Positions 12,801 through 61,500 of a stretch of 64,000 nt of DNA are shown here, one piece after another (position 1 is the first letter of the stretch; each line of letters opens with the position of its first letter). This DNA comes from Branchiostoma floridae. Lineage: Eukaryota; Chordata; Leptocardii; Amphioxiformes; Branchiostomatidae. The DNA lies in NCBI RefSeq assembly GCF_000003815.2, contig NC_049991.1, positions 9,635,182 to 9,699,181 of the forward strand. Reading direction: 5' to 3'. The translations under genes were made by a program, and so were the position numbers. The notes beneath the pieces were generated by a model. The model made no database searches, was not told where the DNA came from, and worked only from the letters and a program-made list of their open reading frames with translations.

Positions 12801-15800
12801 TTTGACAAGAGTCAGCTTTTAATTAGTTGTTCTACTTTCTAAATAGAATAGGTTCCATTCTTAACTTCACAGTTCAAGATCACACTCCAATATTGAATGC
12901 AAAGGTTTTTTTTCTCTCGACATGAATAGATAATTGCGGACCCATCCGATATCAACGTCCTTCCTGACTACAGCTCGGACCCACGCGTAGTCACCAACCT
13001 GACGGACGGTGTGAATCGTACGCGGGACGACATCCACATGTGGCTGGCTCCCTACACGCCAAACGGCAACCACTACATCTGTCTCACCTTCCAACAGCCG
13101 TGTAAAGTGGCCATGATAAGAATATGGGTATGTTTGATTCTTAGCCATACATTGAATTGAACAAAGCACACTGTCAGTTACACTACTGTATGGTAGATAA
13201 ACGCTAGTTCGCCTTTATCCATGGGGTGTCCTATATACGTTGTTTTAAAAAAGAGGATTTTTAGGGACATCAAGTTGACAAATGGTTGCTTGAAACTGCA
13301 ACGTTTTGAACATATTGCAGTTTTAAACCAAAGTCTGCTGACTTGATATCCCCCAATGACCAGTTTTTAAAAACAACGGATATAGATTACCCCGCGGATA
13401 AAGGTTAACTAGTAAGTAAACATTACTAAGAACATACTTTATGTCTTACTATTATTCTGCCTAATATACATGTAGTATGTTGTTTTAGGACTAGGTATAT
13501 CAACATGCAGAGAAATAATACAGATAATCTTTGTATTAATATTTAATTGATGTAAGACATCATGATGTATTTACTTACACAAGTTGATTTTTATCTTTTA
13601 TGATTTTCAGAACTACAACAAGTCCAGAATTCATTCATTCAGAGGTGCAAGGGACATTGAGATGATGCTAGATAAAAGTTTAATTTTCAAGGGAGAAATA
13701 GCAAAGTAAGTATTCATTCTTGTACAGAATTGTGTCCATACGTGTTGCTGATGTGAATGCTTTTCAGCACCAAGGACATTAACTTTTTTAGAATTGTATT
13801 TCTTACTCTATCATTATTATAAAAAAAAGAACACATTTCCTATTCTGTATCAAATACGGCTTTAAGCAGTCAATCAGATGATATGTTATCACCAACATTT
13901 GTTCCTAAGAATTGTAAATACAGAGACTTTTTGTACCTCAGGTATTTTACATTGTTCCTCTTTAAAATTCCATTTTTACAATGACATCATTTTACTACAG
14001 AGCAAGTGGTCTGCTGCAGGGTGACTTGGACTCCTTTGGTGATGTAAGATTGTTTCTTTATTACACTTAGTGTTGTAACAGTTCTGGTAGGTGATTGTAG
14101 ATACAGGATCACATGGATGTAAAATCAAGGGTACCCAGTGTAACATTTGGTCTTAGTGGTAGGATTTGGGCACTTACCTATACGTCAAGGTGACGCGTCT
14201 ATGCTATGCACTCTCACCAATATAGCCAAGGACCAGGGTTCAGTGTACAGTTTGATGGGATCTTTATTACTACGACCGATTGTATACAGTTTCAGCAAGT
14301 GAACGGAGGTAATGATATTGACTAGCTTAATACAAATAATACAAGATAAGATACCTGGACAGATGCGGGTGGATGATACTAACTAACCGGTTACGTAACT
14401 ACGGCGGCGGAAGATGCGGTTGACCTTGTCCCTGAGTCTGCTTCTAGCCTAACAAGCGCGTACCGCGCCTTACATTACGTCAATTGGAGGCGGAGCTTAC
14501 GCGAGCGCTGCGGGGCGTGGTCAAGCTGACGTCAGAGCGCGCCCAGGGTCACGTGCTCTCACCACGCGACCCCTGGACCGCCCAACGCAATAATGAGACT
14601 TGCTACACCAGACATACCATACAAGACAGTTCAGTAATCATTTACAATATTCTGAGGAGCTAGAGATAAGCTGTGACAAAGAAAACAATGTCTTTACTAC
14701 TAGTATCTCCCTGTTGAGTAACCACGTAATTGATAATTTGCGGCTAAACGGCTACCTCAGTGTGCTAGAGGGGAGTGGGGAAAATATTGTTTAGCAGGAT
14801 CACAGATTGCAATGTCCCCGATTGCACCTAAGAACTGACCTATGATTCCCGCAGACCATACTGTTCACCATGGATGAGGAGATACTAGAGGCCATGGCAC
14901 AGTATGATGAGACGTATGAGGGGGATGTGGAAGACTATGATGAAGAAGAGGAGGCACCGTTTGAGAGACCAAGCACTGCAGACAAGGGAAAACAGGTGAA
15001 ATGTCTTTAAGTTACAGATTCATAAGGAAGTGTGTCTTAATTCTACATTTCTCGGCAAAAGCAGCAAAACCTGTTTGAAGTTCTTGCTGGTAATATACAA
15101 CACTTTGTATTCCTTATTGCCCTTGGCCTGGCCCTCCAACAGGTAGAATTGGTCGTGGGGCAATCGATCCATCCTGCAGCTAGGCTGTACCTTTGGCGAT
15201 ACGGAATGCCCAGTGTTGTATTCTAATTTACAAAGCTTTTTTGATTTACGTATACATGTACCTCTACCATACTTCTGTACAAAAATTAAGCCCATTTTGA
15301 ACACCAGTGATGAGACTTGCTGAAATATAAGTGTTACGTTTTCTATGAGTGATTATTCTGTTATTAGCTATTACCAACATTATACCTGGAATGGAATTAA
15401 AGTCATTTGGAGCCAACTTAAATCTATGTTTACATGTATGTTTGTTGCGGGTTCAGACTGTCACAGGGGACCGACCTTTCACAACAGCTAAAGCTGCGGA
15501 GAGACAGATGGCTGCACAACGACAACAACAACAACAACAACAACAACAATTACAAACACAGGTTCCTGTGGGGGAGCCACGGCCTGATGCCTACCAGGGA
15601 CAAGGTACTGTAGCACAAAACAGTCATCAAGGCTGCAATATTTATTTTTCTTTACTGGTACGATCAATTTTTAGATCAATCTTAAAGGTCTACATTTTTT
15701 AGATTCTCTAGCTTCAATTGTAGATTTAGGTCAGATCTTTCCATGCATGACCAGGAAAAATATTGCAAACTCTTCTTGCTTTTTTCTTGGAGACTGCTGC

Positions 15801-18800: not shown

Positions 18801-21800
18801 AATGACATGTATATAATAGAGAGCTATGATTATAAAAAGTCTATATGTTGTGTCCTTAACCCCACCCAGTTGTGTTTGAGCTCCAGCTGCTGTCGACCTG
18901 GGGTGACCCCTACTATGTTGGGCTGAATGGTCTGGACTTCTACAACGAGAATGGGGACCAGATCCAGCTGACTCAGAACAGTATCCTTTACATGCAGCAT
19001 GTGCAGATGACTTACCAGTGGTTACTTTAGATACAGACTTTAAAAAGTGTTTGCCATGCAGTTGGCAGGTTGTGAGTTCAATCCCTAGCTATAGCCAAGT
19101 CATACAAAAGACTTGAAACAAATGGTAAATACTGCTTTCTCTGCTTAGTAGCAATCAGCATTTGGGTATGGTAGTTGAACACACACACCACTACTAGTGG
19201 ACTAGCCCTCTACTGTAGTGACTGCACAAAGCTGATTGGCCCAGGGCTACAGAAATGGAGATGGGTGCCACCCTATGCATCATCTTGTATGGGAAGGACA
19301 TGACAAAATTTGGAAAGTTAGAATCATACCCAGTAGAATTCAACTACAGTATATATACTCAGTCTGTTATAACATACAGCATGATATGATGTGACATGAG
19401 GTTTCTGGTACAGCCAAAAGAACAGAAAGAAGCTCAGTTTGCTATGTATATGATATGATTGAGCTTTTTCTATCATTTCAAGTTTACACCGTCACAATTT
19501 GCTGGTACAGCCCCTTGACTGATGGCACAGACATTGCTGCGTACCCTGAGAGTGTGAACGTGCTACCAGGTGTGGAGGGGGATGTGAGAACACCTGACAA
19601 GCTCATAGATGGGAACAACTGCACCAACGATGGCAAAAACATGTGGATAGCACCTGTCCTACCTGGGGTGGTGAGTCAGAGTCAACATACTATACAATCA
19701 TGTATGACAATTAAAGCAAAGTTGTGGTCCGAAGGCCGAATTATCAGGCCACACTCTGGTTTATATTTACATGCAAGAAAATTATTATGGGACAGTCGTA
19801 GAGCATAAACTATACAAGATAAACAAAATGCAATTACATCAGCAACTGATTTACATGTAAAATCAAGCTTGAACTATCTAATTTTTTTTGCTGCAAAATT
19901 TGGCAAAAACTAATTGTCCTATGTGGTGCAGAAAGCTAAGGGTCTGACTATTCATTCAATGATTTGGATGACATTGGATGCAGCAAGATGCAATTTATTT
20001 GATATCATGATAGTAAATCCGTGTTTTACTTATTGTCGATTTCTTTCACTGTTGGGATAAGCTCCATCTTAAGCCCATTGACTTTTGTTTGAACTGGCCA
20101 AAGGAGCAAGGAGTACAAGCAAAGATTCCAAAACATCCAAATGATTTGGACCACTAGCTCTTCTGCTCCATGCATGGTCCTTTTCTTTGCTTTACCAAGA
20201 ATATCACCTAAAGTCCTTGGACTTTTAGACAGCATTTGACAAATTGATTTACACATATCCTTGTCCCAACAGATCAACAGAGTGTATGTGATATTTGACC
20301 AGCCACAGACAGTCTCCATGATTAAGTTGTGGAACTACAGCAAGACTCCAACCAGGGGTGTGAAGGAGTTTGGGGTAGGTGGAACCATAAACACTGTCAA
20401 AAATCCATTAGCTTTAAGAGAATGAAAAGACTTACATGAACAAGTTGAGCTCCAAAGTTGCACAAATCATTGTGCCAGGTAATGTTTCCTATGGCAGGTA
20501 CATTGTAAGACTACTTGTACCTTTGAAATACACAACTTTTGAATGTGCATCCTTAATAATCTTCGAAGATTAAAGGATAATTATTGCATTAGTGCAATTG
20601 CTAGATGTTAAGTCAAAACAAAGCATTTTGTTTCTGCATTTCATATAATGCAATGATGTATTTTATATTGCTGGGGAATTTTTTGAATGGGAAGTTTCTG
20701 TACAAAGTCAACCAAATCCATTTCTCTGTGTCAGGTGTTGGTGGATGACCTTGTTGTGTACAACGGTATCCTGGGCATGGTGCCGGCCACACGTGGGATC
20801 CTGCCCACATGTGATGCTCCCACACCTTACCACACAATCCTCTTCACCGATGATGATGCTATCGCTCAGAGAGAGAGACATACTGTCATCAGGTATACGC
20901 TTGTGGCATCTTTTAGTAATGTGCGTCAGAGTAGAAACTACATGTATTTGCAAAGAAATTTAATGCGTCCACCATATTTTTAAATATCTTTTGTGTCTTC
21001 AATATTTTTCTCTTTGTGTATTGTAACCTTGCTACCTCCCTGTGTAACAATTTTATATAAATGAATATTTGCTGATACAGTCAATCACTCCTTTGAATAC
21101 TGATCAGATAACACAATATTGTTGTTGATTTAGAATTTCTTTCAACTGTTCCTTCTCTCATTTCTTTTCTGTACACCTGTCTATACCTAATATCACTCCT
21201 CATGGAGTAAATACATGATTGTGTTTCGTTCCTTTCTACATCACCCTTTAACACACCCAGGTACTTCCACCCAAACTTCTATCCAGTCATGCCAGTTCCT
21301 CATCTTCTTAGTCATCCTTTCTTTTTACAACATGGGTGAGAGCACAGTTTGTGCCTTGTTTTCTTCCAGCTTCTATAATGCATTTGAGGGAATAAGGACT
21401 GGTGATATGACATCATCAAGATATTGCCAAATAAGGGAATGCTTTGATCACATAATGATGCATGGAAAGTTGAAGGTGTACCAATTTGGCACTAAATTTG
21501 ACTTGGTTATGGGATTGGGCAGCAAGGAAAAGGTTAGGAATAGACAAAGTAATGATGTTTCCAATGTCCAAAGGCAGTACAAACATAGTGGTACCTAACA
21601 AGCCTTTTCTATCTGTTTATAAAGTAAGCTACATGTGTTGTAAGATGTAATGTTGATATTTGAGAGTAAATGTACAGTCTCATCATCTTCCCCCACAGTA
21701 ATCAGGTCCCAGATGACCAGGATGTGAAGATGACAGATGATAACAGAGTGATGGCACATCACAGGCAGCCCAAGAAACCTTCAGTGGACCAGGGTAAGTG

Positions 21801-22860: not shown

Positions 22861-25800
22861 GGATTTGTGTATTTGTGTGCCCCTTTACAAGTATGTGTAC
22901 AACAAATTGTATTGGCCGACAGGATGATATCCACTTGCTTGATAATAAGAGATTTCATTTGCCTGGGGCGATTTGGCCAATGACATTGTCCAACCCTGAA
23001 CCAAGTTTTAGACATTCTAAAGTATCATTCTACAAAGTCAGTTCTGTCATAAGTCTGTCGACACATTGTGACAAAGTATAATGAGGTAGAGACAGTCAAA
23101 AGGAATACAGATGTTCAAAAACTACATGATAGTAAAGGACTTAAATTGCTATGGATGCTCTGAAATTGCTTATATTGTATCTCCATTTCTTATTCAACTA
23201 TAAGACATTAGATATAGGTCTCGTTTAGCCAAGAGCCCTGAACGTGCACTCTCAGAGCTCTTGTTGCCCAGACGGCACCATTTGCGAGGAGGCGAGACCA
23301 GTCACCGTCCAACAGAGGGGATAGACAGACAACCAGGTTCCCTCAACAGCAGGAAGTTATAAAAAGTCTTCAATTTTGTAGTACTAAACATATTTTAAGG
23401 GTCAGTTTGATATGTTTTTGTACAGAGGTTATTGACAGCCTGAATTTTGAGATTTGAATTTTCAATGAAGTCCAGAACGTTTTCTTTCAGGTGTGAAATC
23501 ATTCGTCTTATATATTTCACACTGCGCTATGCTTGTCGAAGTATCTTTCACAAGAGAAAAAATTTGGTAAAATAATTTCTGTTGAGGGAAGAGACAAAGA
23601 AGATGCCCCCACACCTTTCATGTCCACCTGGTAAAGATGAGATTGAGAGGTAAAGGAACAGAAGTGAAGTGATGAGCTACAAAGGGACGTCTTAAGTTAT
23701 AAGTCTGTATTTTACTTACTATGCACATATCTTAAAAGCCCATTTCTATACCTAAACGTAAAGTATGTAGTACTCTATCTGGCTGACTGTTTTGTTGCTG
23801 GGTTTAATGAACATTACAGCTTAGTCTCTATATCTAGGACCTGGTCTGTGGCAGAGTGTAGAAAAGGATTGGTGAAAGGTATTGCTGGACAGCACACCCT
23901 AGATCCTACATTGTAGCTTGACTGACAAAATCCTGGAAAAGTTTCCTTCCATTGAATTTCAGTATCTTTGATGAACTTCTCAGCAAGTTGAAAGCAGTAG
24001 GAGTCAAACATATATTTGAATATAGTGTTCTCAGGAAAATATCACAGACTTCAGCAGCTGCTAGTTGAAGAAAAAAAAAATTGCAAATTGCAAATCCTGT
24101 GAACATCCCTGTGAAAAGTTACACAGCTGCTACTGAAGAGCAGAGGGCTGGGTGGTCTGAAACAAAGAAAAAGAGGCAGCCAGTGAGAATGTCAGCAATG
24201 ATTATCCACTAATGCCATGGCATTCATATTTGACTTCCATTAAATGCCAGAGGACTGAAATTGAAAATGAAAATCAACATTGGCATTGCAGTGCAGTGTA
24301 TAACATAAATGACCATTGGAAGGCATGGTTGCATCAAAATGTATAGTCTTCAGTCTATCTCCAATATCTGTGAATGACTGTCCTTTAAGAGACAAGAATC
24401 AATGATATTTCTTGTCTGACTTGAATGGCAAGATCAGCTGTGAATGGCAAAAGTATATCACTGTAGGTGTTGTACTTTTGTGGGTCAGCTGTTACCAGGA
24501 AAAGCTGCCATGGATGACCCAGTGTAATGACTTGTTTCACTTCTAATAAATACAAAATATTAAAATTTGGAACAGCACGTATGAATTTTTACGGCTACAC
24601 CCTACATCGCACCCCCTTGACTTTCTACGACTCTGGGGTCTCCTCAGGGGGCTACCTCCCTGAGACTAGTCCAATGCTACTGGAGCAGGCACACATACTA
24701 CCTGTACCTGTGTCCCCCATGTTGGCCCTTCCGAGCTGCTGTGAGATGTCCTTACTCTAACACTTGTGTACTAGGGAGGTAAACGTGAGTGCAGGGCTCT
24801 AGAGTAGGGAGGAGTGGGGGGTGTGCAGATAGAAAGATGGGTCATCGGCCAGACCAAAGTCAAATTCAGTTTTACCATTCTGCTGATGCTTCAACTGAGA
24901 GTAAATTTGAACTATTAAACCATAGGCCAAATATAGGTTAAACCATAGGTTCAATATTGATATTGCCTCAGTTACTATCACTGATTATCAATAATTTAGT
25001 ACACTATGCAAGAGTGCATAAACGAAGAACAAATGTAACTTTTCAGTGTATCGTGCAATACTTTCACCATTACAGAGTTTCACTACGTATAATTCTAGTG
25101 AGATGAATTTGCTGTGATCTGGCCTTAGTGAAGAAGTGGGCTAAGTCAGGGGAGGTGTTGTAAGTGCGGGTGTGTAGAGTGTAAACTTCTTTTTTTTTTC
25201 CCCGGCACTACCTTTTCACAAAGGAGCCCACACGGTCACTGTCGCAAAGGTGCTGTCTGAGTGCCCAGCAGTAGGGTGTGGCACTGATATCACCTGGCAA
25301 CCAAATTGTGCAGTGTCTAAGATAGGAAACTGTTTGGTGTCTGTCAGTACCAATACCTAGGCAAAAGGCTTTGAAATTACATTGTATTGTTTTAATTACA
25401 AATTGAGAAAAAAGATTTGATGCTTGATCATTGTTTCTGAAGGTAATCATAACGATTTGATCATCACATTTGTTCTCAAAGTCTTTCCATTCTGCCTAAT
25501 TTTGAGTCCACATTAAGTACTGAGAGTACAGAGCACAACTCTGAGTACATTACAGTCGGCCAGGTAGGTGAATTTGGTATCACTTGTCTATTGGACAGAA
25601 GTTGATCAATACATTCACTTTGATTAAAAACTTTGTGGACTTCTAGCAAGATGCTAACCATGCATTCCTGTGCTAAACAAGAAGCAGCATACATTTTTTT
25701 ATCCATCGCTTTTTGACGCTAATCTTCCCGACGTTTCCCATGGCCCTGTCAAACATCTCTTGTCCCAACCTTACAATTCAAGACTCTCTTCTTTAGGATT

Positions 25801-27076
25801 AAGACGCAGCAAATTAAAACTGAAAACAAATAAGTTAACATTCCGTGCAACAGAAAGAAGGGGGAGGGGCGCGTGTTCACTACGGTATGTTCCTGAACAG
25901 GGCAGCAACCAACGGGAGCGCGCGAAATATCCACATGTACAGCCACAAAGCGCCAAATTGAAAGTTCTTACAGCTTTACCTACCTTTCCTCTCCTTCCTA
26001 ACCCTTCGTCAAGTTTCCATAAGATAACTTATGAAGCTCAAAGTCTCATCTACCTCATCTAATCGCTGGAATTTGGCGAAGTCGACTCCCGCTGTCCAGC
26101 CAACATGTCACAACTCATAAGACTTGAGCCTGTCACAACAACGCGCGCCGTTGCCAGGCGACCGTTTCAACATGACCTGGGGTGACCTCAAGTACAGGTT
26201 TACATTTTTTGAACATTTCTCCCACGAATCACGAATGTTACAAGACTTTTAGCTCACAAATCCATGAAGAAAAAAACAATAAGCTTTAGATGAATAAGTT
26301 CACAGTCAAACTGATTTTCTTACAAACGCGTCAACACTTGTGTCCATGCACGGACACTGAGTGAGTTCTTAGTTACACACGACAATTTCAATGTTCATAT
26401 CAGTAAAACTTGATAACGCTTTCAAATGAAATCCCGTTTTGATATCTATCAACCACATGCTCGCATGCTAACGTTATCGTCGGGTTTGCGACAGAAACTG
26501 ATCAGCCGCTAACATAACGTAAACCGTTCAACAAACAACACGGTTGGACACCTAACAAGCCCCCACCCACCCAGACCCACCTGCACTTGCGAATTGTTAA
26601 AGCTTTGGCGTTCGTGTAACCAACATTCACTGAAAATCAACACTCAGAGCTCCATACAAACCTTGCCTACCTTTTCCTTTTGTTGTGGTCCAACTGCGAA
26701 GAAGAAAGAACCAATCTGATGTCTGAAACTCTGATATCCCACATCCACACCCTCCACCCTCCCTGCGTTTTGGTGGTCTGTCAAGTAAACATTGATGACG
26801 TCACTAAACGAATTGACTTGTGACCAATAGGATGCTCGGTAACTTCCGTTGTGTTAATGTTATGCTGATTTGACCAATCAATGTTCTAGTACCATAGGGA
26901 ATCGTTTGCGAATACTATGACGTCATTGCATTACAAATTTGCGGGAAACGGGGGAAACTTTATACTTGATGCTCAGTAATGAATATACATGAGGTGTTTC
27001 AAAAGAAATACATGTGAAATAATCTGAAATCAGATCTAAAACCACAATTTGACATGTCCTAACGTTACCACACTTG

Positions 27077-28279
27077 AGGGTCTGCATGGGGGGTCTTGGT
27101 AACGCTTAACGGTGAATTCAGGAGGCCTGGTAACGCTTAACGGTAAATTCAGGAGGCCCGGTAACGCTTAACGGTAAATTCAGAATGAGTTACAAAGCAT
27201 AACAGTAACATTACCGTGCATTCCTATTCATACAACGCTAGAGTAGTTATATCAAAGGGTGAAAATACATTGTGAGAAGCAAAGGGTGCCTAGAACCCGG
27301 AGGAATGACAGGGACATTGTCCATGACATCTGTAAATTGACGGAGGCAGAGTTCCCGGCCCGCCACAGAGATGGCGGCAGCAAATTTCCTATGGGGGGAT
27401 TGAACTATTGTTTCAGGACATGGAGCGCCGAAGGCGCGACGCATTCCAGGGGGGTCCGGAATTTTAAAATCAAGACCCTCTTAAATGCTATTTCCTGCAT
27501 TTTTGGCAAATATTGCCGACCGACTAAGCTAGGTTGATTTTGACATTTTCATCAAATTGCACATGATTATACTCGTAGCTTTGGCCTCCACCCCCATAGC
27601 CCCGAAATATTTTTACCATTTCGAGCTCGGAAGGCACGAGACGTTGCAATATAAGTCCGGGAAAATTTTAAAATCTGGACTGTCTGAAGACAAATTTTGC
27701 TGTAAGACGAAGCTAAATTAAATTACATTTTATTAGAAAGAAAAGTTATTTTTTGTGCGAAAACCCACGCCCCTGACATATTTTCATCATGTCGTCGTGA
27801 GTGCCAAAGGCGCAAGCCGTCGCAATGGAGGTCCGGAGAAACCTCATTTTCTGCATTCTAGGAGAACTTTTTGCCCGAAACTAAGCTATGTTTGACACTA
27901 AAATCTGTATGAGTGATAATGTTTTGAGAGCGACGCTTCCGCAACAGTTACCATGTTCAGAGCCGAAGGCCGGGAGGCTCGGAGAAATTTTGAAATCTGG
28001 ACCCTTTGAAATTCGAAACGCCATTTCCTGCATTTTCAGGGGTTCTATCTGGCATTTGACTTCGTGTGTATAGTATAACGGGTTACGAAGAATTTCTTGG
28101 TAACGCTTAACGGTGAATTCGGGATAACAAATAACGATTAACGTTGAATTAAAACAACCAATAACGCTTCACGAAGAATATACCTATAACGATTAACGTT
28201 GAATTAGAGCGGGCCGGTAACGATTAACGGTGAATTAAAATGGCTCGTAACGCTTAACGGAAAAAGGCATGCAGACTCT
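27077..28279. mobile_element. hAT-like nonautonomous transposon in the left palindrome arm
   Basis: The 8-bp duplication CACACTTG (27069-27076 and 28280-28287) flanks termini AGGGTCTGCATG and CATGCAGACTCT. Tandem copies of a motif like GGTAACGCTTAACGGTGAAT lie inside both ends (27094-27185 and 28095-28260), in the same orientation. The right palindrome arm lacks the element: its counterpart at 29447-29472 runs straight across. An 8-bp duplication indicates the hAT superfamily. The 1203-bp interior has no transposase frame. Confidence 0.85.
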
Positions 28280-28419
28280 CACACTTGTATTCATACTAAT
28301 ATGACCGGAGGTACAATATAATTCTATTGTCTTCGCGTGTGTCTGCGTCTGCTGTCCTTAATTTGTGGTTACTCCACCCTCAGCTGCAAGTAAGGGACGT
28401 GTGTGTTTACTGGTGCGTG

Positions 28420-28516
28420 TTCAGCACCAAGGACAGGTATCCTCGCATATGGGTGTATGGTGTTTAGCGCCAGGGACAAGCTTGTTGTTTGTCTGGGTGT
28501 TCAGCACCAAGGACAG
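28420..28516 (+). promoter_or_regulatory. Cluster of three REST/NRSF (RE1)-like motifs, left of palindrome centre
   Basis: TTCAGCACCAAGGACAG occurs exactly at 28420-28436 and 28500-28516, with a variant TTTAGCGCCAGGGACAAG at 28463-28480. Spacing is 43 and 37 bp. The vertebrate RE1 consensus begins TTCAGCACC and continues with GGACAGCGCC, so the left half and GGACAG match. The terminal CGCC is not conserved. Whether any protein binds here is unknown. Confidence 0.5.
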
Positions 28517-29257
28517 GTGAATTTGCCTTGTGTAGACGATCAAAGAAGCCAGCCAGAGCTATAAAAGAAGGATTTCCTGCTATTCACGAACTGTGCTACA
28601 ACAAATTTCCGAAGGGTTAAATTTAGAACCACCTCGGTCTCATCAAGCATTTTTCACAACACCGTAACAGCTGGATTTCTCAGAGTCTCACAGTGACCCC
28701 TGGCGATCAGATAGCAAAATGCAGATCTTTTGCTGACATAGGGGAGAGAAAAGTTGAAGTTGATTGGCTAATGCGGAGTCTATCGTTAATATGATTGGAC
28801 CATTCTAACCAATGGCAGACAGGTGAATTTGATAGAAATTGTAAAATGCACCGCAGATGTTAAATTGATATATGCTGCCATTAGTCAACGTGGTTAGCAT
28901 CTCTACGAATGAGAATGCTCCAGACATTATCACATTGACCAATCACAGATAACGTCAACTTTTCTCATCGGAAGATCTGTACTTTGCTTTCTGATCGCCA
29001 GGGGTCACTGTGAGACCGTGAGAAATCCAGCTAAAACCGGGCATCCGTCTATTCTAGCTATGGCTTGCTTATTTCATTGCTGCCGCCAGGGTTGCGCTAG
29101 TTGGGTAGGGGTGGGGGCAAAATTAAATCTTGCGAACTATGTTAGATACCCGTGTTTACCGCAGCAGGATTGCCTTGCTTGTAACGTTATAGTTGCCACG
29201 GCTAGGTGTTGCTGCTGATTCCTGTATCCTTTCATTGTCTATATATGGCAAATGCAC

Positions 29258-29353
29258 CTGTCCTTGGTGCTGACCACCCACACAGTCAACAAACTTGTCT
29301 CTGGCGCTAAACACCATACACCCATATGCAAACATGCTGTCCTTGGTGCTGAA
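29258..29353 (-). promoter_or_regulatory. Mirror cluster of three RE1-like motifs, right of palindrome centre
   Basis: Reverse-complement copies: TCAGCACCAAGGACAG at 29258-29273, TTAGCGCCAGAGACAAG at about 29294-29310, and TTCAGCACCAAGGACAG at 29337-29353. They pair with the left cluster as expected for palindrome arms. Confidence 0.5.
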
Positions 29354-30052
29354 CACACACACATGTCCCTTACTTGCAGCTGAGTTTGGCCTAACCACAA
29401 AACTCAAGGACAGCAGACGCAGGCACACTGAAAACAAAACCTTTGGTCATATGAATACAGGCGAATGTCAAATTGTTGTTTTGGACCTGATTTTGCTTGC
29501 CTTTGATATTTTCAAGTCGGTTGGGTAGTTGTTACATAAATTATACATTTTCCTTAATTGATGGAATGCATCATTTCACATTCATTTCTTTAGAAACAGC
29601 TCATGTATATCATAACTGAGCAAGAATAATGCAATCATAAAGTTCCCCTGTTTCCCACAAATTGTAATGAAACGTCGTCATACATTGTAGTAATCACAAA
29701 CGTTTCCCTATGGTACATGAGAGTTGATTGGTCAAATCAGCATAGCATTAACACAACGGATGTTACCGAGCATCCTATTGGTCGCTAGTCAATTCGTTTA
29801 TTGACGTCATCAATGTTTACTTGGCAGACCACCAAAACGCAGGGAGGGTGGAGGGTGTGGATGTGGGATAGCGTGGTAGACATCAGATTGGTTCTTTCTT
29901 GTTGGCAGTTGGACCACAACAAAAGGAAAAGGTAGGCAAGGTTTGTATGGAGCTCTGAGTGTTGGTTTGCCGTGAATGACGGTTACATGAACACCAAAGT
30001 TTTCATAACGATGGCCTACCGCCTATGATTTAGCAAGTCCCGGGGGAGGGGT

Positions 30053-30517
30053 TCAACCGCGTTGTTTGTTGATCTTATTTCTGCCGTAACCCGACGATAG
30101 CTTGCGAGCATGAGGTTGACAGATGTCAAAACGGGATGTACCTAATCCTTTGATAACGTTATTAACACTGTTAGTGATATGATCATTGAACTTGAGCCTT
30201 TGTAGCATTAGTAAAAACTCATGTCCGTGCATATGAAACTTGAGAGCATTGACACGTTTGGAAGAAGTTTTATTTTGACTGTGAAGGTATTCATCCATTG
30301 TTTCTTGACATTTACTCATTTGTGAACTAAAACTCTCATTACATTTATGACTCGTGGAAGAAGTGTTCAAAGATTTGCAAAAAAATGTGAACCTGTACTT
30401 GAGGTCATCCCAGGTCATGTTGAAACGGTCGCCTGGCAACGGCGCGCGTTGTTGTGACAGGCTCAAGTCTTGTGAGTTGTGACATGTTGGCCGGACAGAG
30501 GGAGCCGCCTTTCCCAA
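30053..30517 (-). other. 154-codon open frame in right palindrome arm, unrecognised
   Basis: Open on the minus strand. The mirror sequence in the left arm (about 26095-26540, plus strand) loses the frame soon after the shared MTWGDLKYRF-like stretch. I do not recognise the product. The frame may be chance or the remnant of an element protein, and I would not call it a gene. Confidence 0.25.
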
Positions 30518-31044
30518 AGTTCCAGCAATTAGATGAAGTAGGCGAGACTTTTGGCTTTACATGCCATTTTGTGAGGTCTTGACGAAGGCTTAGGAAGGAA
30601 AGGAAAGGCAGGTAATGTTGTAGAACGTTCAATTTGGCGCTTTGTGGCTGTGGATATTTCGCTCGCTCTGCACTGGCACTGTTCAGGAACATGCTACTAG
30701 TGGGAACACGCGCGCGCCCCTCCCCCTTCTTTCAGTTGCACGGAATATTAACTTATTTGTTTTCAGCTTCATTTTGCTGTGTCACTCTGTTTTGAATTGT
30801 GAGGTTGTGACAAAAAAATTTGACAGGGCCATGGGAAACGTCAGGGAAATTAGCGTCAAAAGCGATGGGTTTGCACAGGAATGCATGGTTAGCATCATGA
30901 TAGAATTTCAGCCCCCCACCCCCCAAATTTTTTTTTAAGTCCAGAAAGTTTAAGTCAAAGTCAATGTTTCGATCAGCTCCTGTCCAATAGACAAGTGATA
31001 CCAAATTCACCTATCTGGCCGAACCTAATGTACTAGTCCTCTAG

Positions 31045-31973
31045 GCTCGTTCTCATTTAAATGTCGAAATGCTGTCGCCTGACTTTACGCCTTGATATGG
31101 AGCAAATTATAGACAACATCACTGGTTTCTTCATTTTTCCACAACCCCTGTAATGTTTTACAAACGATGCACAACAACATTCGTATTGGTTGATGGCTTA
31201 GAAGGTTATTACAGCCTCGGGTGGGATTTCAACCCCTAAAAAATGGCTGTCGCCTGAGAAGAAACGAAGATTTCAAATAGTAGCCAAAAATGTAACAATT
31301 CAGTTCCCAGAATAATAGTTCGGTAGGTGAAACCAGCTACCCAGGCCCTCTGTCCGATCACGTCAGATCGCCACTATCACTGATCTTGGAGGCTGTGTGA
31401 GGTGTTTTATGCCTGTCGCCAGATTCTGTAACAAACGTTACCACCACTAGTACGATGGTTGCCACGGTTTTATTATCCACGTATAAGACTAGAAATTACC
31501 GTTTTTGTGACGCTGTACAGTTTTTCCGACTTCCTAAAGAAACAAAAAAAGGGTTGTTGACTGTTATTTGTATCCCACCTTGCTTAACAAAATGTTGTAC
31601 AGAAACGACTGTAACAAACGTTACCATTGTTTGATGCTGTCTAAGCTTTCTATTTGACCTGGTGTAAAAAAGCTGCCCACTTTTCAAATGCCCCTTGGGA
31701 CATCCACTTATACCTAAATGATGTAGTCAATAAGGTAAGTCCTTTAGAAGAAAACAGGGTAAAGTCTACTGTTGTAACAAACGTTACCGGTAACGTTTGT
31801 TACCTGCCCTGTAATGTATTACCAATGGGACCGAAAATAATAAGTTGCCATTTTTTGCCTATGGTTAAAAGAGGAATTTTCCTACACAACCAGGTAGTTT
31901 TTACTGAAAATAAAGCGGATTTATTTTTCGACCAAAAAAATGCCATTTTCGACATTTCAATGAGAACGAGTGT
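31045..31973. mobile_element. Inverted-repeat element in the right palindrome arm, CTAG-flanked
   Basis: CTCGTTCTCATT (31046) is inverted as AATGAGAACGAG (31959-31970), with homology continuing to ATGTCGAAA. CTAG lies at both outer edges. The left arm lacks it (counterpart about 25515-25550). The interior holds the 15-mer GTAACAAACGTTACC at 31428, 31611 and 31774, and its complement at 31789, the last two forming a perfect 30-bp palindrome. Confidence 0.75.
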
Positions 31974-33167
31974 CTAGTGTTCTGCACTCAACTGGCCAGT
32001 ACTCTGTGTGGGCACAAAATTAGGCAGAATGGAAATGTGAAGAACGAATCATTATGATAAACCTAAAAAACAATGATTGGGAGCAGTCAGTCTCTTTTCT
32101 CAATTTGTAAATAAAACAGTACAATGCAATTTATCGTAGTATTGGTACTGACCACCAAATAGTTTCCTATCTCAGATACTTCACACTTTGGCTGCTAGGA
32201 TACATCACACTTTGGTTGCTAGGTGATATCAGTGCCACACCCTACTGCTGGGCACTCAGACAGCACCTTTGCGACAGTGACCGTGTGGGCTCCTTTGTGA
32301 AAAGGTAGTGCCGGGGAAAAAAAAAAGAAGTTTACACTCTACACACCCGCACTTACAACACCTCCCCTGACTGAGCCCACTTCTTCACTAAGACCAGATC
32401 ACAGCAAATTCATCTCGCTAGAATTATACGTAGTGAAACTCTGTAATGGTGAAAGTATTGCACAAGACACTGAAAATGGTTTAATAGTTCAAAATACTAT
32501 CAGTTGAAGCATCAGCAGAATGGTAAAACTGAATTTGACTTTGGTCTGACCTATGACCCATCTTTCTATCTGCACACCCCCACTCCTCCCTACTATAGAG
32601 CCCTGCACTCATGTTTACCTCCCTAGTACACAAGTGTTAGAGTAAGGACAGCTCACAGCAGCTCGGAAGGGCCAACATGGGGGACACAGGTACAGGTAGT
32701 ATGTGTGCCTGCTCCAGTAGCATTGGACTAGTCTCAGGGAGGTAGCCCCCTGAGGAGACCCCAGAGTCGTAGAAAGTCAAGGGGGTGCGGTGTAGGGTGT
32801 GGCCTTAAACATTCGTATGTGCTGTATCAGTTCCAAATTTGGATTTGTATTTATTAGAAATGAAACAAGTCATTACACTGGGTCATCGATGGCAGCTTTT
32901 CCTGGTAACAGCTGACCCACAAAAATACAAACTAAGGTACAAGTTTAACCTACTAAACCTACAATGAATATACTTTTGCCATTCATGTAAGTCAGACAAG
33001 AAATACTACCGCAGTATTGATTCTTGTCTAAATGGACAGTCATTCACAGCTCTTATTGGAGATAGACTGGAGACCATACATCTTGATGCAACCATGCCTT
33101 CCAAGTGTATATTACACTGTACAAGATGTTGATTTTTTTTAAAACTTCCATCTTTGTCAGCATTTAA

Positions 33168-33644
33168 AGGCGCCCAGAGCAGTTTTTAGTGCATTAAAAT
33201 AGGAAATATTCTGGATGAGACAATCGGTACGATATTGACATGTACTTCACCATTCTAGCACATTTGTATCATTATTTCGTACTTTCAGCGTTTAAAATGA
33301 CGCGCAAACATGCCGCAAACGGACCCCTTTGATTTATTATATCCTACAATAAATCAGCACAGGATCGAGCCACTAACGGTTTCCCGTCGGTACTTTTCGG
33401 AGATTTTCGCAAATCAAAATCTTATTCGAACAAGTGACGACATCTCCAGAAGCGTTCGGGATTCTTTGGTCATGTTCGGCACGTGCAGCGCTCTGATTTT
33501 CAATGAGTTCTCACCACCCAGCGATGTCTCATCTTTGCTCAATAAAGGTCGATATGCATTGAGATAGTGTTATTCAAGCTTACAGTGTGTAAAAATGACG
33601 TGAAAATTAAATTTGAAAAGACTAAAAAACTGCTCTGGGCGCCT
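33168..33644. mobile_element. TTAA-flanked element in the right palindrome arm
   Basis: The termini AGGCGCCCAGAGCAG and CTGCTCTGGGCGCCT are perfect inverted repeats extending to about 22 bp, each bordered by TTAA (33164-33167, 33645-33648). The left arm keeps a single TTAA at the matching site (24240-24243). TTAA duplication fits piggyBac or Kolobok; the AGG start favours Kolobok. An 85-codon open frame (33310-33567) lies inside but I do not recognise it. Confidence 0.85.
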
Positions 33645-34668
33645 TTAATAGAAGTCAGATATAGATGCCATCAGTGTATATTCAATGCTGACATTCTCAC
33701 TGGCTGCCTCTTTTTCTTTGTTTCAGACCACCCAGCCCTCTGCTCTTCAGTAGCAGTTTTATAACTTTTCACATGGATGTTCACAGGATTTGCAATGATG
33801 TCCGAGTTTTTATCTTCAACTAGTAGCAGCTGAAGTGATACTTTCCTGAGAACACTATTATATTCAAATATACGTTTGACTCCTGTCACTTTCAACTTGC
33901 TGAGAAGTTCACCAATGATACTGGAATTCAATGGAAGGAAAGTTTTCCTGGATTTTGTCAGTCAAGCCAGGATGTAGGATGTGCTGTCCAGCAATACATT
34001 TTACCAATTTTTTTCTACACTCTACCACAGCTCTGGTCCTAGTTATAGAGACTGAGTTCTAGTATCTGTTCATTAAACCCAGCAACAAAGCAGTCAGTCA
34101 GGCAGAGTACAACATACTCTAGGTACATGTAAAGGTATAGAACTAGTCTTATAAAATACACTTGTACATGTAAAATATAACTTAACACTCAATTGTATAG
34201 GTCATCACTTCACTTCTGTTTCTTTCTCTTTTACTTTTTATCTTTGCCAGGTAGACATGAAAGGTGTGGGGGCATCTTCTATGTCTCTTCTCTCAACAGA
34301 AATTATTTTATCAAGATTTTTCTCTTGTTAAAGATACTTCAAGAAGCATAACTTAATGTGAAATATATCAGAGAAATTTACACCTGAAAGAAAACTTGCT
34401 GCACTTCATTAAAATTTGACACGATATGTCTACCTTCAGGCTGTCAATAAGCTCTGTGCAAAAACATCTCAAACTGTTCTTTAAAAGTTGTTTAGTACTA
34501 AAAAATTGAAGACCTTTTATTATTTCCTGCTGTTGAGGGAACCTGGCTGTCTGTCTATCCTCTCTGTTGGACGGTGACTGGTCTCGCCTCCTCGCAAATG
34601 GTGCCGTCTGGGCAACAAGAGCTCTGAGAGTGCACACATTCAGGGCTCTTGGCTAAACGAGACCTATA

Positions 34669-35258
34669 TTCGATATTTAAGATTTGATTAGCAACTATGG
34701 TACATTATGTTTTATAGTGAAAAGCGATTTCACTGGGAGGTATTGTAATTGTTTTGGGGATTTCTGTTTTTCAGCTACATGTATATATTTTCCATGCACA
34801 GTTTTTTTTTGCCTATTCTTCATTGCACTCTTATTTTTCCCCAACATACATAGCCAGAGGTACAAATGTAGATGCCGTCGATCTTGTACTGCTCAGTATT
34901 CAAAATCCAATGGCTAAACGTAAGGGCAATGTACCAAATATATCGAAGACCTACATGTGTATGTACATCTCAAATGGGAATTAACTGTAGATTTCAATCA
35001 TACAGTTAGATTAACATACCAAGGAGTTCTGCTCAACTGTGGGCCCAGTGGTGTTGACATACAACTATAGATAACATTGGCAAAAAATGTTAACGCTACC
35101 ATATCAAAACTGGGTATCATAATCTTAAAATTGTAACATTGCAAGACGTAAATTACAGCCCATCACCTCACTTGATTGCAAGATAAAGAAGAAGAGAAGT
35201 ACATGTATGATTGATGATAAAAGAAACAGACGACATGTTTGCTTGGATTTTCCAACAC
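34669..35258. other. Intergenic, between palindrome and COX6B 3' end
   Basis: AT-rich sequence with no exon or repeat that I can support. Confidence 0.5.
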
Positions 35259-38922: not shown

Positions 38923-39004
38923 TGGCAGCGGTGGGATTCGAACCCACGCCATCGAAATGACTGGTGCCTAAAACCAGCGCCTTAGACCACTCGGCCACGC
39001 TACC
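38923..39004 (-). tRNA. tRNA-Leu (anticodon UAG)
   Basis: The minus strand folds as an 82-nt class II tRNA. The acceptor GGTAGCG pairs with CGCTGCC and is followed by discriminator A. A-box TGGCCGAGTGG, anticodon stem CTGGT/ACCAG with loop TTTAGGC (anticodon TAG), a long variable arm (CATTTCGATG), and B-box GGTTCGAATCC are present. CCA is not encoded, as usual in eukaryotes. No intron. Confidence 0.95.
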
Positions 39005-39960
39005 TTGTGCTGTAAAGCGGCGTTCTATTGGTTCATAAACTATAATGCAAATTTCGGTTGCTTCTGAGCTCCCCTCAAAGTATTTTCAATGTATTCTTTT
39101 ATTTTTTATTGCTTCGTTTAGTTTGAGGTGCATTATTTCTTCAGTAACGCTGCATACACAGTGTGCTATGCTGACCATTGGCAGGATCGCTTACCTGATA
39201 GACACGTGACTAGAGTAGTCCAAAGACCTCACGAGGGGGGTTATTCCTAAAAAATAATTTCCATCAACGATTTACTTAGCTTTTAGCACGCAAAAATAAT
39301 TTTGATACATAAACATATAAATGTAGCTTAATTTTTATCAATATAGTACAATTTTTTACTTACAGTGGTGTGATATATTTTTTTTTCAAATACAAGTACG
39401 ATTTTTAAGCAACCCATTTGTAATGGTACAGCCTCAATTCTATTATTGGTTCCTGTTGGGTAGCCCATATCAATCATACCACGCAGTTGGCCAGGACAGG
39501 TAGTTTGGAAAGGTCTAGAAAGATAAAACTTCGTAAACTACAGCTTTGTGTACAGCATAGACTAAGTTTTGGAACGGTCAGCTGTGATAATCTGCTGAGT
39601 CTGGTGGTGTCCAGCCGGTCAAGACTGACCCGTGGGCCCGTGTGTACCAGGCCTCCCAAGCAGGACCTTGACAGTGTGCTGGTGGTCACGTAAGCAGGCA
39701 CACGCCCGATTATTATGATTCCACTGTTACCAAAAAAGTTCACAACCATTCTGACGGCATCTCCACTTCTTGCACCAACCAAAACCTGTCCGATGTCTCT
39801 GATCGCAGACCCCAACAGTAAATACCAGTGGCGTACCAGTCGTGAATTTCTGTACTCTTCGTGTCAGAAAAACGACGCAGATTTTCAGTCTTGAACCTTT
39901 ATTATTTATCGTGGGTAAAAATCTACTTGTTCAAAACCAGACGACCGGAAAGACAACAAA
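39005..39960. other. EEF2K upstream region
   Basis: AT-rich to about 39470, then GC-richer sequence up to the EEF2K start codon, probably promoter and 5' UTR. Open frames on both strands across 39474-39815 do not resemble anything I know. No TATA box stands out. Confidence 0.4.
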
Positions 39961-42900
39961 ATGTCTTCTGTGTCGAGTTCGTCTGATATGGACGAAGATT
40001 GGATGCATATGTTGCCTCTGACGGAGATAGAGGTTGTAGAAGAGGAGGAAACGTCGTCAGACTCAGCGGAGGAAGTCCCACGTTCAGTGTCAAAACAGAG
40101 GCGAGTATCGTTTGCATCCATCCGCCGACAGCGTACACTGGGCACTCTCTCGTCCCTGAGACCAGCCTCCGAGCCCATCGCCATACCCGAACGCGAAAAA
40201 GTTCCCAAACAGAGTGAGGAACCGGTCTCTATTCCCGTGAGAAACTGGCGGATCGCCATCAGGAAGGCTCGGGAGTTCGTGAGGAACACTCCCGATGCCT
40301 GGCAGGAGTTCGGATTGGAGAAGCACGAGACGGAAAAGGCCACTAGACATCGGTACAACGCCCTGAGAAAGTCATGGTTGGAGGACACGGTTCTGGTCAA
40401 GATGGAGGACGAGGTAAACAAACAAGCATGTGCACTTATCGGTATTAATCTTGCTGGGGAAGGGGGCGTGGTTAGGCCAAAAACGCCAAGGATCATTCAA
40501 CGGTTCAACCCATCACTACGAAATAACACCACAAGCAATATTTATTTTCTGTCGATTAACAGGTGATAGAGAAACATTTGGCAATGTCTAACGACATTCT
40601 CATTAAACTTGAATACAAGACTATACGATCAAAATACTTCTTTGTTGTTGTTGTTGCAAAAAGATAAAATGCATTAATGTGGAAAACTAAGAATATTCGA
40701 ATAACATCAACATTTTTCATTTATGGACATCCCTGCCATATTTCCTGCTCCGCCATATAACAAGTTACATGTAGGTCCCACAGACCCCGCACCCCCCTGT
40801 GTATTTATGCTGACTGGTAGTGGTACACACTTCATTCTCAAGTCAGCCTCTCAGTTACTAGTGAATCAATAGAAATATCCTCATACTACCAAAGAGCAGC
40901 TGCAGGATGTAGTCCAGTTTTTGGGACAGTGACCCCGGGTACTGTTAGGTCATGGGGCTATGGTGTCACTAGAAAAAGTTCAAGAGGTCCGAAGCACTGC
41001 TCTGCCAGGTAATAATGAATAAATTAAAAAAGGCACCATTGCCCCAAGTCAGGATTTTACAGAGATGTGTCCCCTTGGGCCTTTTCAGAAATTTTGGTAC
41101 ATTGTGTCCAGATGAAAAAAAAGTATTTGTCCAGTTTTTATTTTGCTAATTTCTTATAACACATCAGACTCTTCTAGCCTGGAGTTCAGTAGCCTCCATA
41201 GCAGGCTTTCTGGGGCCTTTTTTTGGCTCATAATACACTTTTGCTGGCCATTTCTATTTGTACTCGGTCGCTGATTGCTGGCGTTTTCTGATTGCCGGCC
41301 TCCGAAAGCCTGCATCCAAACGGCGCATGAAAGGGATATTAAAAAAACGATTAGGGCGATTAACTAGGAGGTGTGAATTTCTTGCCTGCCGTGGACTTCT
41401 AATAAACTGCACGCATCTCTACCGGACAGAGCGCTTGCAGCCGACATGCGAATTGTATTATGAGCCAAAAAAAGGCCCCAGAAAGCCTGCTATGGAGGCA
41501 AGGAGTTCAGCCTTGTTCCCAAACGTACACTTCCACCAACCTTGGTGGAGCGACTAAAAGCACTACAAAGCTGGATGGACTCCAGGCTAGACTGACCAGA
41601 CCATGGCCTGAAATTCCATTTTCCCCAGACAGAACTGAGAAGGATGCCAACAACAACGCTTCTCAGTCCATTTTCAGCCCTGTGTAAAATGATTAAGCCA
41701 ATATACAATATTTGCAGTTTTGAGGCCATTACATTACCATCAATTGAATTTTGTAAATAACATGCCAAGAAAATAACAAATATGATTTTGTGTTGCAGCC
41801 ATTCGACCATGGAGCCATGAGAGAATGTTTTCGCTTGTAAGTATGATGGCAATGTACAACCATAACTTCCTTGGTACAACCAAGGAACCTCCTTGGTACA
41901 ACCTAATATACCTGTATATATAGAATACAACACGGTGTATTCCGTATCACCCGAGGTACCCGCGGGAGGGCTGGGACCGAGGGTGATGCGGAATACACCG
42001 TGTTGTATTTTATTTATGTCATACCCACCTGAGAAAACCACTGTTTTGATGCGAAATGCGCCAGAAGTTGAACAAATTTGTTGCCCTCGAAAAAAGCGTT
42101 GCAACAGTAATGTTCCAACGTCCGAATCAGGTATTCGAACTGTCGATGGCGCGGCACTCGGTCCACTCGAAACAGTTTGATTTATTCGAATGGAGCCCGT
42201 GTGATAAGCCTGGGCCGTACAGAAAGTTATCACTCGGTCCAGAACACCCGTATCGAACGTTTTCGCGTCACAGGTATGACATAAAAGTCGTTACTACACG
42301 GTAATGGTGCTCATGACAATGTTCATAATTTGTTTGGTGCACATAGTTTTTATTGTTAGTTATAGATATTGTCATGGTTCAACACAGGACATGGTAACCT
42401 GTCTATTATCGTTAAAATCCCTTTGTGGTCCTCAAGTAAATAGTATGTCCTGTTGAGTTAGAGGCCAAGGGGATCCATATGCAGTTTTAGCTAGCTGCAT
42501 GGCTGCACGTTAGAGAAAATACTGGCCTCTTAAGGTCACATGACAGGCGGTAAGTGAATGGCAATCATTCCACTTCCACCCATTTGAGCCTCACGTACGT
42601 GTGTTGTTTTGCAACAATTCCTAATGCTAGTTCACCTTTATCTGCGTTGCTTAACCTTTATCCATTGTTTTAAAGAACAGACTATTTTGGGATATCAACT
42701 CGATGAACAGTGTTTTCAAATTGCAATATTCTTAAAATATGGCAGTTTAAAACCACCGTCCGCCAAATTGATACCCGTAAATATCCTTTTTTTTAAAACA
42801 ATGGATATAGGTTACCCCGCAGATAATGGTGAGCTAGCATTACTTGTCCTAATTGCCAGAAAGATTAGACACCCCATTCCCAATAAAACACACACAATCA

Positions 42901-58539: not shown

Positions 58540-61500
58540 TCAGCACCCCTCGCTAGGGGTCTCTTCCACTGCAGCCAACTTCTCCAGCTTTCCACGTAGC
58601 CGCTCCATTTTCTTGTGCGCTGATCCAACGACGTAGCCGGTTTTCTCATAGATACTGTCGTGTAGTACCTGTACGTACTCCGACTCGAACCGGTCGGCGG
58701 CGATGCTCTGTCTCCTGGCCTTGCCGGCGGCAGCGGCGAAGTGTGCCCCGAAACTGGTGTGTACCCTCTTCATGTCCCTCTCCATCTCCTCCTGGCGCTG
58801 TTTTACCATGGCGTCCATGATTTCCCAGCCGGGGAGTTGGACTTGGGAGCCCGAGCGCAAAACGCTAGAGGAACGCCGTAACATCGAGCTCATCCTGCGC
58901 CCGAGAGATTGGCCGGAGGCGGAACCTTTGACAGGAATCTTGCTCACTGTTGGAACCAAATGTAAACAAAATGAATCCCTGACGAGTTTGATACTTGGTG
59001 GTTTCTACTGATAATCTGAATACAACGGAGGTATGTATGGTGTCCTTGGTGCTGAATGACATTCTTATATACACTGATGTAACAGTTAAATTAACTAAAA
59101 AAACGTTAGCCCTTTAGCTCAAAGTTTTTAAACAAAGAAGGCAAACATACTTTTAACTCTGCAAAAACCTTGTTGTAGTATCAATCAGAGCTTGGCTTTC
59201 CTTTCTTGTATTACAACGTTGTCACATCCGTCGAAGGCCGGCATACGATTTTGTCCCAGCATTTTCTATTAGGTTATAACAGAGCCAACAGCCGGCAAGG
59301 ATTCGATTTTTCGTAACAAGACAGTTGACATTTCAGGACACACGATCGACTATCTAGATAATACGGACAGTTCACGATTGCATTCACCGGGCCGTTGTAC
59401 ACTTACCATCCACGTTACTGGTGAGGGCGACACTGACTCTCCTGGCGGCGGGACCACTGATCCCGATCGCGTGGGAGTTGATCCTCGCCACCCCCTTTTT
59501 TACCCGAACCAAAGTCTCGTCGTCATCACTGAAAAAAAGGAAACATAAAAGAAATTAGAAAATTGTTTTTAAACCCTACCGTTTGTTACATCTAAAGTCA
59601 GTTTGTTTACTGATGAAATGGTCCATGTTATAAACGGGAAAACTAATAGGAATTTACCTACGAATACGTTTGTGAGGTACTAGTATTCCGATCGAATGGC
59701 AGGACTTTTCTCAAGCTTGACATTTTCTACTTACATGCTGTTGAGCGCCACAGACTTGAGAAGTTTGGTCACGGTCTTGGGCGGGACTTCAAAGCCGTGC
59801 TGACCAGCAGATAGTCCGTGTTCCTGGTTTAAGTCAAGGTCAGCCTTCCAGACACCTATGAAAAATTACATTAAATAACCACATGACTTGCAATATGAAT
59901 CTAAAAACATGCACGCAAAAAATACAGTTACTCAAGGGACTGGATATGATTTGGGAAACGATCAGAAGGAATCCAAATTGTCTTCAGCTTGACCTTGTCC
60001 TACCATGTTTCCAATCCAAAGTCTTCAGCTATTTTACATTCATAGTTATGGTACCGGTATAAAAACAGTTTCTTCCTGATCTCTTCAGTGAACACTGACG
60101 AAGGATAGTGGATGCTACCTGAAACGTTTGACCATTTCCAAAATCATGTCCACTTGCTTGAGTAACTGCTTTTGGCGTATGTAATTACCTGAATGTGTAA
60201 CCTTCATCGGCGTATTTTTCACGCAGTTTTTTTTTTTTTTGTTCCATCCAGAGAGCTTTTTATCTTTGAAACACCAAAGATGACACTCTAGATAGGTTTT
60301 AAACTCTATGTAAATCAAGTGTTCTGCTCTAGCTCGATGGTACATGTAACGTCACGTACTTGATGTGACGGAGCTTTCTGAGTAGGTGTCTGTGACTTGA
60401 CAAGGCTTCTGTATCCAGACGTCTTTGCGCAGGTCGACTGAGTTTGGGCGGTCGTCGGGATCCAGGCTCATCATAGTCCGTACGAAAACTCGCGCTTCTG
60501 TGGGGATAAATATTTCAATGGTCGTGAGTTAGATACTGCCAAGTTCATAGCACATTGGTTGTAACATGCACTTGCTAAGGTAAAACGCCAGGTGCTGTAC
60601 TAAACAGAAACGCAAGAAAGCGCTATTGTGTATATACGCACATACATTGACTATGTACACGTTTGTCTGTGTAAAGGTCTGCCCTTGGCTATGTAGATAG
60701 GAACTGAAGAGCCAGGAAAACTATCAACATGAAATTTAGGTTATGTTTCGCATGAGGCTGTCAGGTATCAGCAATCATATATGTATCTTATTTCTTGTAA
60801 AATTGGCGATATCACTTCAAACGTGTATTGGACAAGGTCAAGGAAAAATTCAAAAACCTTTTGAAGTCTTCTGATGGAACCGGAGTTTTTCTGCCATGGA
60901 ATTGAGTAGGATGCCGATATCTCCCGAGTCTGGGAAGGGTTCTCGTCCGTTCAGCATGGCAAACAGTGTGGCACCTGTAGAAACATTCACCAGAACTTTA
61001 CTTTTGTATATTGTAAGAACATACAATCTAGTATTGAGCGCTCCACTGGTGCAGTATATATCTTAGGCCTACGTCACATTTCCTACCCGGGGCCCGACCG
61101 CGCTGTTTACGGAAACGAAAAATTCAAGTTTATGTCAATAAATATACGAAAGGCATGCCGTTGAATTATTTTTTTGTACGTTTTGTGTTTTTGTTGTCTT
61201 TTTTAAAGTACTTTTTGTTTCTCCAAACTGCCCGGCCGGTCCCCTTTGTGGGAATGTGACGTTAGCTTTAACGGGCTTACCTTGGTTTAATACCTGTAAA
61301 GTTGAGACTCTACAAGAATTCTACACTGAAATACAATGTGTCCACAGGGGGTGTTCGCAATGTCAGCGAATGACCCATTTGTACAATGGCCCGAATCGTC
61401 ATCCTTTTAAAAGATAGCGCGATGTAGACAGAGCTTGACCAGGCTTAGCGTTGTTACTACAGTACACTAACGATATTCGGAAGGAGGATAACCAACTTTG

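Follow-up and report, generated by a model that had tools for sequence, protein, structure and literature searches.

The six short motifs that stand mirrored around the centre of a palindrome in the lancelet Branchiostoma floridae raise the question of what these sequences, which look like the RE1/NRSE element of the vertebrate REST/NRSF system, are and how they came to be there. REST generally counts as a regulator of vertebrates; flies have looser relatives, Charlatan among them. The protein has been described as conserved in vertebrates, and the literature covered here (titles and abstract openings, with few subscription journals) contained no description of RE1 sites in a lancelet. Our analysis centred on 64,000 nucleotides of contig NC_049991.1 (positions 9,635,182 to 9,699,181 of the forward strand), hereafter the window, in which the following copies of the motif were mapped (positions count from the first letter of the window).

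28420..28436, plus strand: RE1-like site, unit 1 of the left arm, exact TTCAGCACCAAGGACAG
28463..28479, plus strand: worn RE1-like unit, unit 2 of the left arm, TTTAGCGCCAGGGACAA, 13/17 positions matching, 4 changes
28500..28516, plus strand: RE1-like site, unit 3 of the left arm, exact TTCAGCACCAAGGACAG
29258..29274, minus strand: RE1-like site of the right arm, mirror of unit 3, its sole change against TTCAGCACCAAGGACAG being the first base, G
29295..29311, minus strand: worn RE1-like unit of the right arm, mirror of unit 2, TTTAGCGCCAGAGACAA, 12/17 positions matching, 5 changes
29337..29353, minus strand: RE1-like site of the right arm, mirror of unit 1, exact TTCAGCACCAAGGACAG
13763..13779, plus strand: lone RE1-like site, an exact 16-mer followed by T (position 17); its flanks differ from those of the palindrome copies
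59040..59056, minus strand: lone RE1-like site, an exact 16-mer followed by C (position 17); its flanks differ from those of the palindrome copies

All five exact copies of the 16-mer TTCAGCACCAAGGACA that an earlier note on this DNA had reported for the 64-kb window were located (28420, 28500 and 13763 on the plus strand, 29337 and 59040 on the minus strand), and its statement that they are far above chance is borne out by the 17-mer, which with up to three mismatches occurs at 8 places in the window as compared with 0.19 expected from shuffles, ruling out a chance origin of the window copies. The same note had described three motifs per side with one variant; three units do stand on each side, spaced by 43 and 37 bp in the left arm and by 42 and 37 bp in the right, but both middle units are worn, and on the right side two of the three units differ from TTCAGCACCAAGGACAG. 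Within the six mirrored copies the left half NTCAGCACC and the right half GGACAG are each present in four, the spacer being AA in the four good copies and AG in the two worn ones, and the window copies are devoid of the RE1 right end. A TATA-like stretch, CTATAAAAG, lies at 28559-28567, about 43 bp past the left trio, with no clear equivalent in the right arm as judged by eye.

The likeness to RE1/NRSE claimed previously holds at all fixed positions among the first 17, which equal those of the REST consensus reported from ChIP-seq, NTCAGCACCNNGGACAGCNCC (PMC4901126). The canonical NRSE is given as TTCAGCACCACGGACAGCGCC, with a 2-bp spacer that is non-conserved (PMC3529185). The spacers among 100 listed sites of the lancelet genome were AA, AG, AC, AT, TT, GC, CA, GA, GT and TG; both half-sites (the right one as GGACAG) and a variable 2-bp spacer are common to the vertebrate element and the lancelet motif, the comparison being one of consensus and pattern matches and not of a matrix score. 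A degenerate pattern of vertebrate RE1, TYAGMRCCNNRGMSAG, served to count deviations, next to a control pattern of our own design, YCRGCAMSNNGRACMG, in which the six two-fold positions are placed elsewhere.

The genome-wide count of the 16-mer that had been suggested as a check, made over 513 Mb in 431 contigs, returned 4,974 copies of TTCAGCACCAAGGACA vs 0 in the backwards control, 7,427 copies of TTCAGCACCNNGGACAG (both halves, T first; backwards control 1) and 9,356 copies of the exact core TCAGCACCNNGGACAG (backwards control 1). The degenerate RE1 pattern matched at 11,350 places (65 backwards) and the control pattern at 10,139 (128 backwards). Beyond the 9,356 exact cores there were thus 1,994 deviations of the RE1 type vs 783 of the control type, decaying arrays entering both counts, and the core deviations lean towards the vertebrate RE1 pattern. 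For mammalian genomes, about 2,000 characterised NRSEs have been mentioned (PMC4777549).

The palindrome in which the mirrored trios are embedded is real and larger than had been implied, with arms extending from about 23.2 to 34.7 kb of the window. Its parts are as follows.

23212..34669, no strand: whole inverted duplication, about 11.5 kb, arms 76-92% identical in blocks
28327..28545, plus strand: inner palindrome, left arm, pairing with 29229-29437 at 82%
29229..29437, minus strand: inner palindrome, right arm, pairing with 28327-28545 at 82%
28393..28549, plus strand: short minisatellite copy in the left arm, unit spacing 43 and 37, partly covered by most listed matches of 28337-28740

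About 1.3 kb of DNA near 27.1-28.3 kb in the left arm has no partner and is probably an insertion. Minisatellite copies at 27097-27183 and 28126-28260, whose units measure about 31 and 25 bp (TGGTAACGCTTAACGGTAAATTCAGGAGGCC and its variants), flank both ends of this unpaired DNA. A query of 404 bases (28337-28740) found at least 178 matches in the genome, counting its own place and the mirror, when 40 of the 293 candidates from the first look were scored; the window trio belongs to a dispersed repeat. The central element of the palindrome recurs in single-arm copies on contigs 1 and 12; two such copies (L128, 1314-2008, and L129, 912-1655) each bear the RE1 units at one end. The proposal that a repeat spreads the site is supported in that this family carries the motif genome-wide, but the repeat is not the sole source of copies, because many of the lone copies sampled have unrelated flanks. 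Retrotransposons, LINE2 for instance, have been noted to carry NRSEs, and mariner to carry NRSF sites; there, as in the lancelet, mobile or repeated DNA bears the site, whereas the lancelet carrier is a minisatellite within a dispersed repeat. The comparison of core and flanks, also suggested in the earlier note, revealed a core kept somewhat better than its surroundings both in the arms and in the tandem arrays considered below: arm against arm (28337-28560), the motif is identical at 48/51 positions and the gap-free flank at 134/163 (p 0.025), or at 134/206 when gaps are counted (p 8e-6).

The inverted duplication sits between the last open frame found with a DUF4457 match (19395-19808; 56.6 bits, cut-off 26.7) and an exon of EEF2K at 39919-40566, which is supported by an E value of 1e-10 to solved EEF2K chains. 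DUF4457 is presumably the KATNIP domain. The previous placement of site 13763 in a KATNIP intron fits, because the site is flanked by two open frames that match DUF4457, the second (5728-6024) at 23 bits and under the cut-off of 26.7. Site 59040 had been assigned to a kinase intron; the reversed 16-mer is exact there, but its intron placement was not confirmed, the site standing a short way past an open frame of the minus strand (58540-59004) that has no Pfam match. The window also holds a minus-strand tRNA gene at 38923-39004 (60.5 bits to the tRNA family of Rfam) and a 224-bp tandem duplication in two copies at 48452-48899.

Two classes of copies, lone sites and tandem arrays, make up the sampled stretch, which comprises 100 listed places of TTCAGCACCAAGGACA, all lying within the initial 13 Mb of contig 1. 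Four clear tandem arrays account for 39 of these places. With the array at 911-913 kb left out, 58 loci were examined, 42 of them single-site and non-redundant and the other 16 either containing several sites or aligning to a locus already kept; a strict set retained the 30 of the 58 that have a single site and align to none of the other loci over 45 bp or more. The 42 lone sites prefer G at position 17 (32/42, binomial p 7e-14), A or C at position 20 (30/42) and C at position 21 (24/42, binomial p 3e-7), the last being a preference shared with vertebrate RE1. Position 18, a C in the vertebrate element, holds G or A in 32 lone sites and C in only 4. Every other flank position carries at most 0.32 bit, the strongest being C at -3 (21/42), and the information of the lone sites drops at the edge of the RE1 footprint, last RE1 position included. 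The lone flanks differ from those of arrays, as far as two arrays with 15 exact sites can represent them: TG at -2..-1 occurs in 0/30 strict loci (1/42 of the wider set) vs 15/15 array sites, and C at position 21 in 16/30 strict loci vs 0/15. Some likeness among loci persists despite the strict set, L063 sharing an aligned stretch of 44 bp (89%) with the L061 array and L049 one of 37 bp with L070, and a weak neighbour unit was found within 60 bp at 5/42 lone sites (L030, L040, L054, L072 and L081). The idea that all copies are fragments of one transposon is rejected for most of the sampled lone sites, given their mostly unrelated flanks and footprint-shaped logo, and is accepted in spirit for the window trio, as a member of a dispersed repeat. 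In six lone sites (L046, L050, L060, L069, L070 and L071, the last two being mutually related) CCAT immediately precedes the motif and may extend the site upstream.

The window copies belong to the array class, with three units per side, the middle one worn, within a dispersed repeat, and it is in tandem arrays that many lancelet copies stand, a difference from vertebrate RE1/NRSE. Among nine arrays read, the main period was 43 bp in seven, and 44 and 35 bp in the others. Between the array consensuses (36 pairs) the motif is on average 95% identical and the linker 68%. Conservation is higher at the 15 core positions than in the linker in 9/9 arrays (Wilcoxon p 0.002), a test that leans towards the motif because the units were picked by motif score (at least 10/17); an earlier test, array by array, gave p<0.05 in 2 of 7 runs on 6 arrays, with p 0.5 for the largest array.

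The search for a REST-like zinc-finger gene, another of the checks that had been suggested, used three approximate finger segments of human REST. It retrieved many C2H2 matches in a continuum, with top identities of 45, 60 and 42%, in which none stood out among the 150 candidates scored per search (of 4,860, 7,595 and 6,153). The Pfam REST-finger model gave at least 21 matches over its cut-off of 27 bits, the best at 32.7 (150 of 4,000 candidates scored), and it separates poorly because the human segment itself scores only 36.3. None of ten zinc-finger loci inspected by eye was REST-like, a finger-5 helix pattern matched 16 times vs 14 backwards (14 of the 16 read lacking any zinc-finger context), and of 19 PDB sequences matched at E 1e-20 none bears the name REST. 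Long open frames with many C2H2 fingers were noted in L082-L085, L087 and L104-L113, and the lists of C2H2 matches point to large expansions on several contigs. Charlatan, the REST-like protein of Drosophila, is reported to bind NRSE in vitro, in a consensus ending in NNCC (PMC4901126), its own genomic consensus being much looser; a divergent relative is therefore possible in the lancelet.

What unites the window copies with thousands of others in the genome is best explained if they are RE1-type sites; the window copies themselves arose by repeat spread and inverted duplication. From the motif, its copy number, its two classes in the sampled stretch, the core kept over the linker and the repeat context we infer, with somewhat better than even confidence, that these are sites for a putative repressor of the REST/Charlatan class, spread in part by a minisatellite and a repeat. 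Such a site would consist of the left half NTCAGCACC, a 2-bp spacer and GGACAG, with C at 21 preferred in lone sites, and would be read by a C2H2 zinc-finger protein. Some of the copies are lone sites, which may have been kept or created by selection for binding, and others would have been multiplied in tandem, giving arrays with units of 35-45 bp (43 bp in most), some of which are recorded as mir-2060. On this view the six copies in the palindrome would represent two mirrored three-unit remnants of one array inside the dispersed repeat, the inverted duplication having mirrored the remnant. On single sites near genes the repressor would recruit corepressors, and arrays, by binding several repressor molecules at once, might act as silencer clusters or as sinks.

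The strongest competitor comes from the small-RNA literature, in which gttcagcaccaaggacaggc is listed as bbe-miR-2060c-3p among the known microRNAs of Branchiostoma belcheri libraries (PMC5650284). The motif could accordingly be a mature mir-2060 microRNA, with all copies being microRNA genes or their relics and the likeness to RE1 accidental. At its gathering cut-off, 54.5 bits, the Rfam family RF03662 (mir-2060) matches 5/9 arrays (as well as L013, which shares an array with L002), and at least 87 places in the genome, a lower bound because 55 of 84,455 first-look candidates were scored, as opposed to none in 14 control genomes. In the window, the trio and its mirror score below that cut-off.

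28447..28528, plus strand: RF03662 mir-2060 match, 46.8 bits, below gathering 54.5
29246..29325, minus strand: RF03662 mir-2060 match, 40.0 bits, below gathering 54.5

The 94-nt model is nonetheless a direct repeat of two 43-bp units, 4/9 arrays fall under the cut-off, and 0/31 non-array loci match at the gathering threshold. An inverted partner (at least 12/17 within about 100 nt) accompanies 0/82 sites, arrays included, and 6/82, W28500 among them, have a fold z below -3 (40 mononucleotide shuffles each). With lone-site flanks that differ from those of the two arrays, a reading of the lone sites as mir-2060 genes or relics is unsupported, and we regard the microRNA explanation of all copies as unlikely. 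A reader unrelated to REST is also conceivable, namely a lancelet-specific C2H2 protein, for instance a silencer of minisatellites or repeats, whose site would have converged on RE1; the very many C2H2 matches from which no REST-like gene stood out, and the many copies held by arrays and repeats, would suit it. Two points make this quite unlikely: at none of the fixed positions among its first 17 does the motif depart from the REST consensus, an agreement that chance would very improbably produce at so many positions, and the deviations of the core lean the vertebrate way. Without any reader, the copies would be ordinary minisatellite and dispersed-repeat DNA, their core being kept by array homogenisation and recent spread. 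The trio is a member of a repeat family, array units resemble each other, the largest array taken alone has no significant excess of motif conservation and a few lone sites bear short likeness to other loci, all of which this explanation accommodates; the mostly unrelated flanks and footprint-shaped logo of the lone sites, and a motif kept between arrays though linkers diverge, argue against it, and we hold it to be the least likely of the readings considered here.

Returning to RE1-type sites for a REST/Charlatan-class repressor, a bolder form of this explanation would see in the lancelet a pre-vertebrate REST/RE1 system operating on thousands of sites, with arrays that serve as silencers or sinks and emit RE1-bearing small RNAs, those recorded as mir-2060; we put this forward tentatively and consider it doubtful as a whole. 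A double-stranded NRSE RNA was reportedly once described in mouse neural stem cells, and mir-2060 small RNAs with RE1 sequence may possibly parallel it. Thousands of sites of the vertebrate consensus in a non-vertebrate would place the recognition code before the vertebrates, and with such a pre-vertebrate RE1 code one could test how the neural silencing network originated. An annotated microRNA family, mir-2060, would moreover come to be seen as a binding site repeated in tandem.
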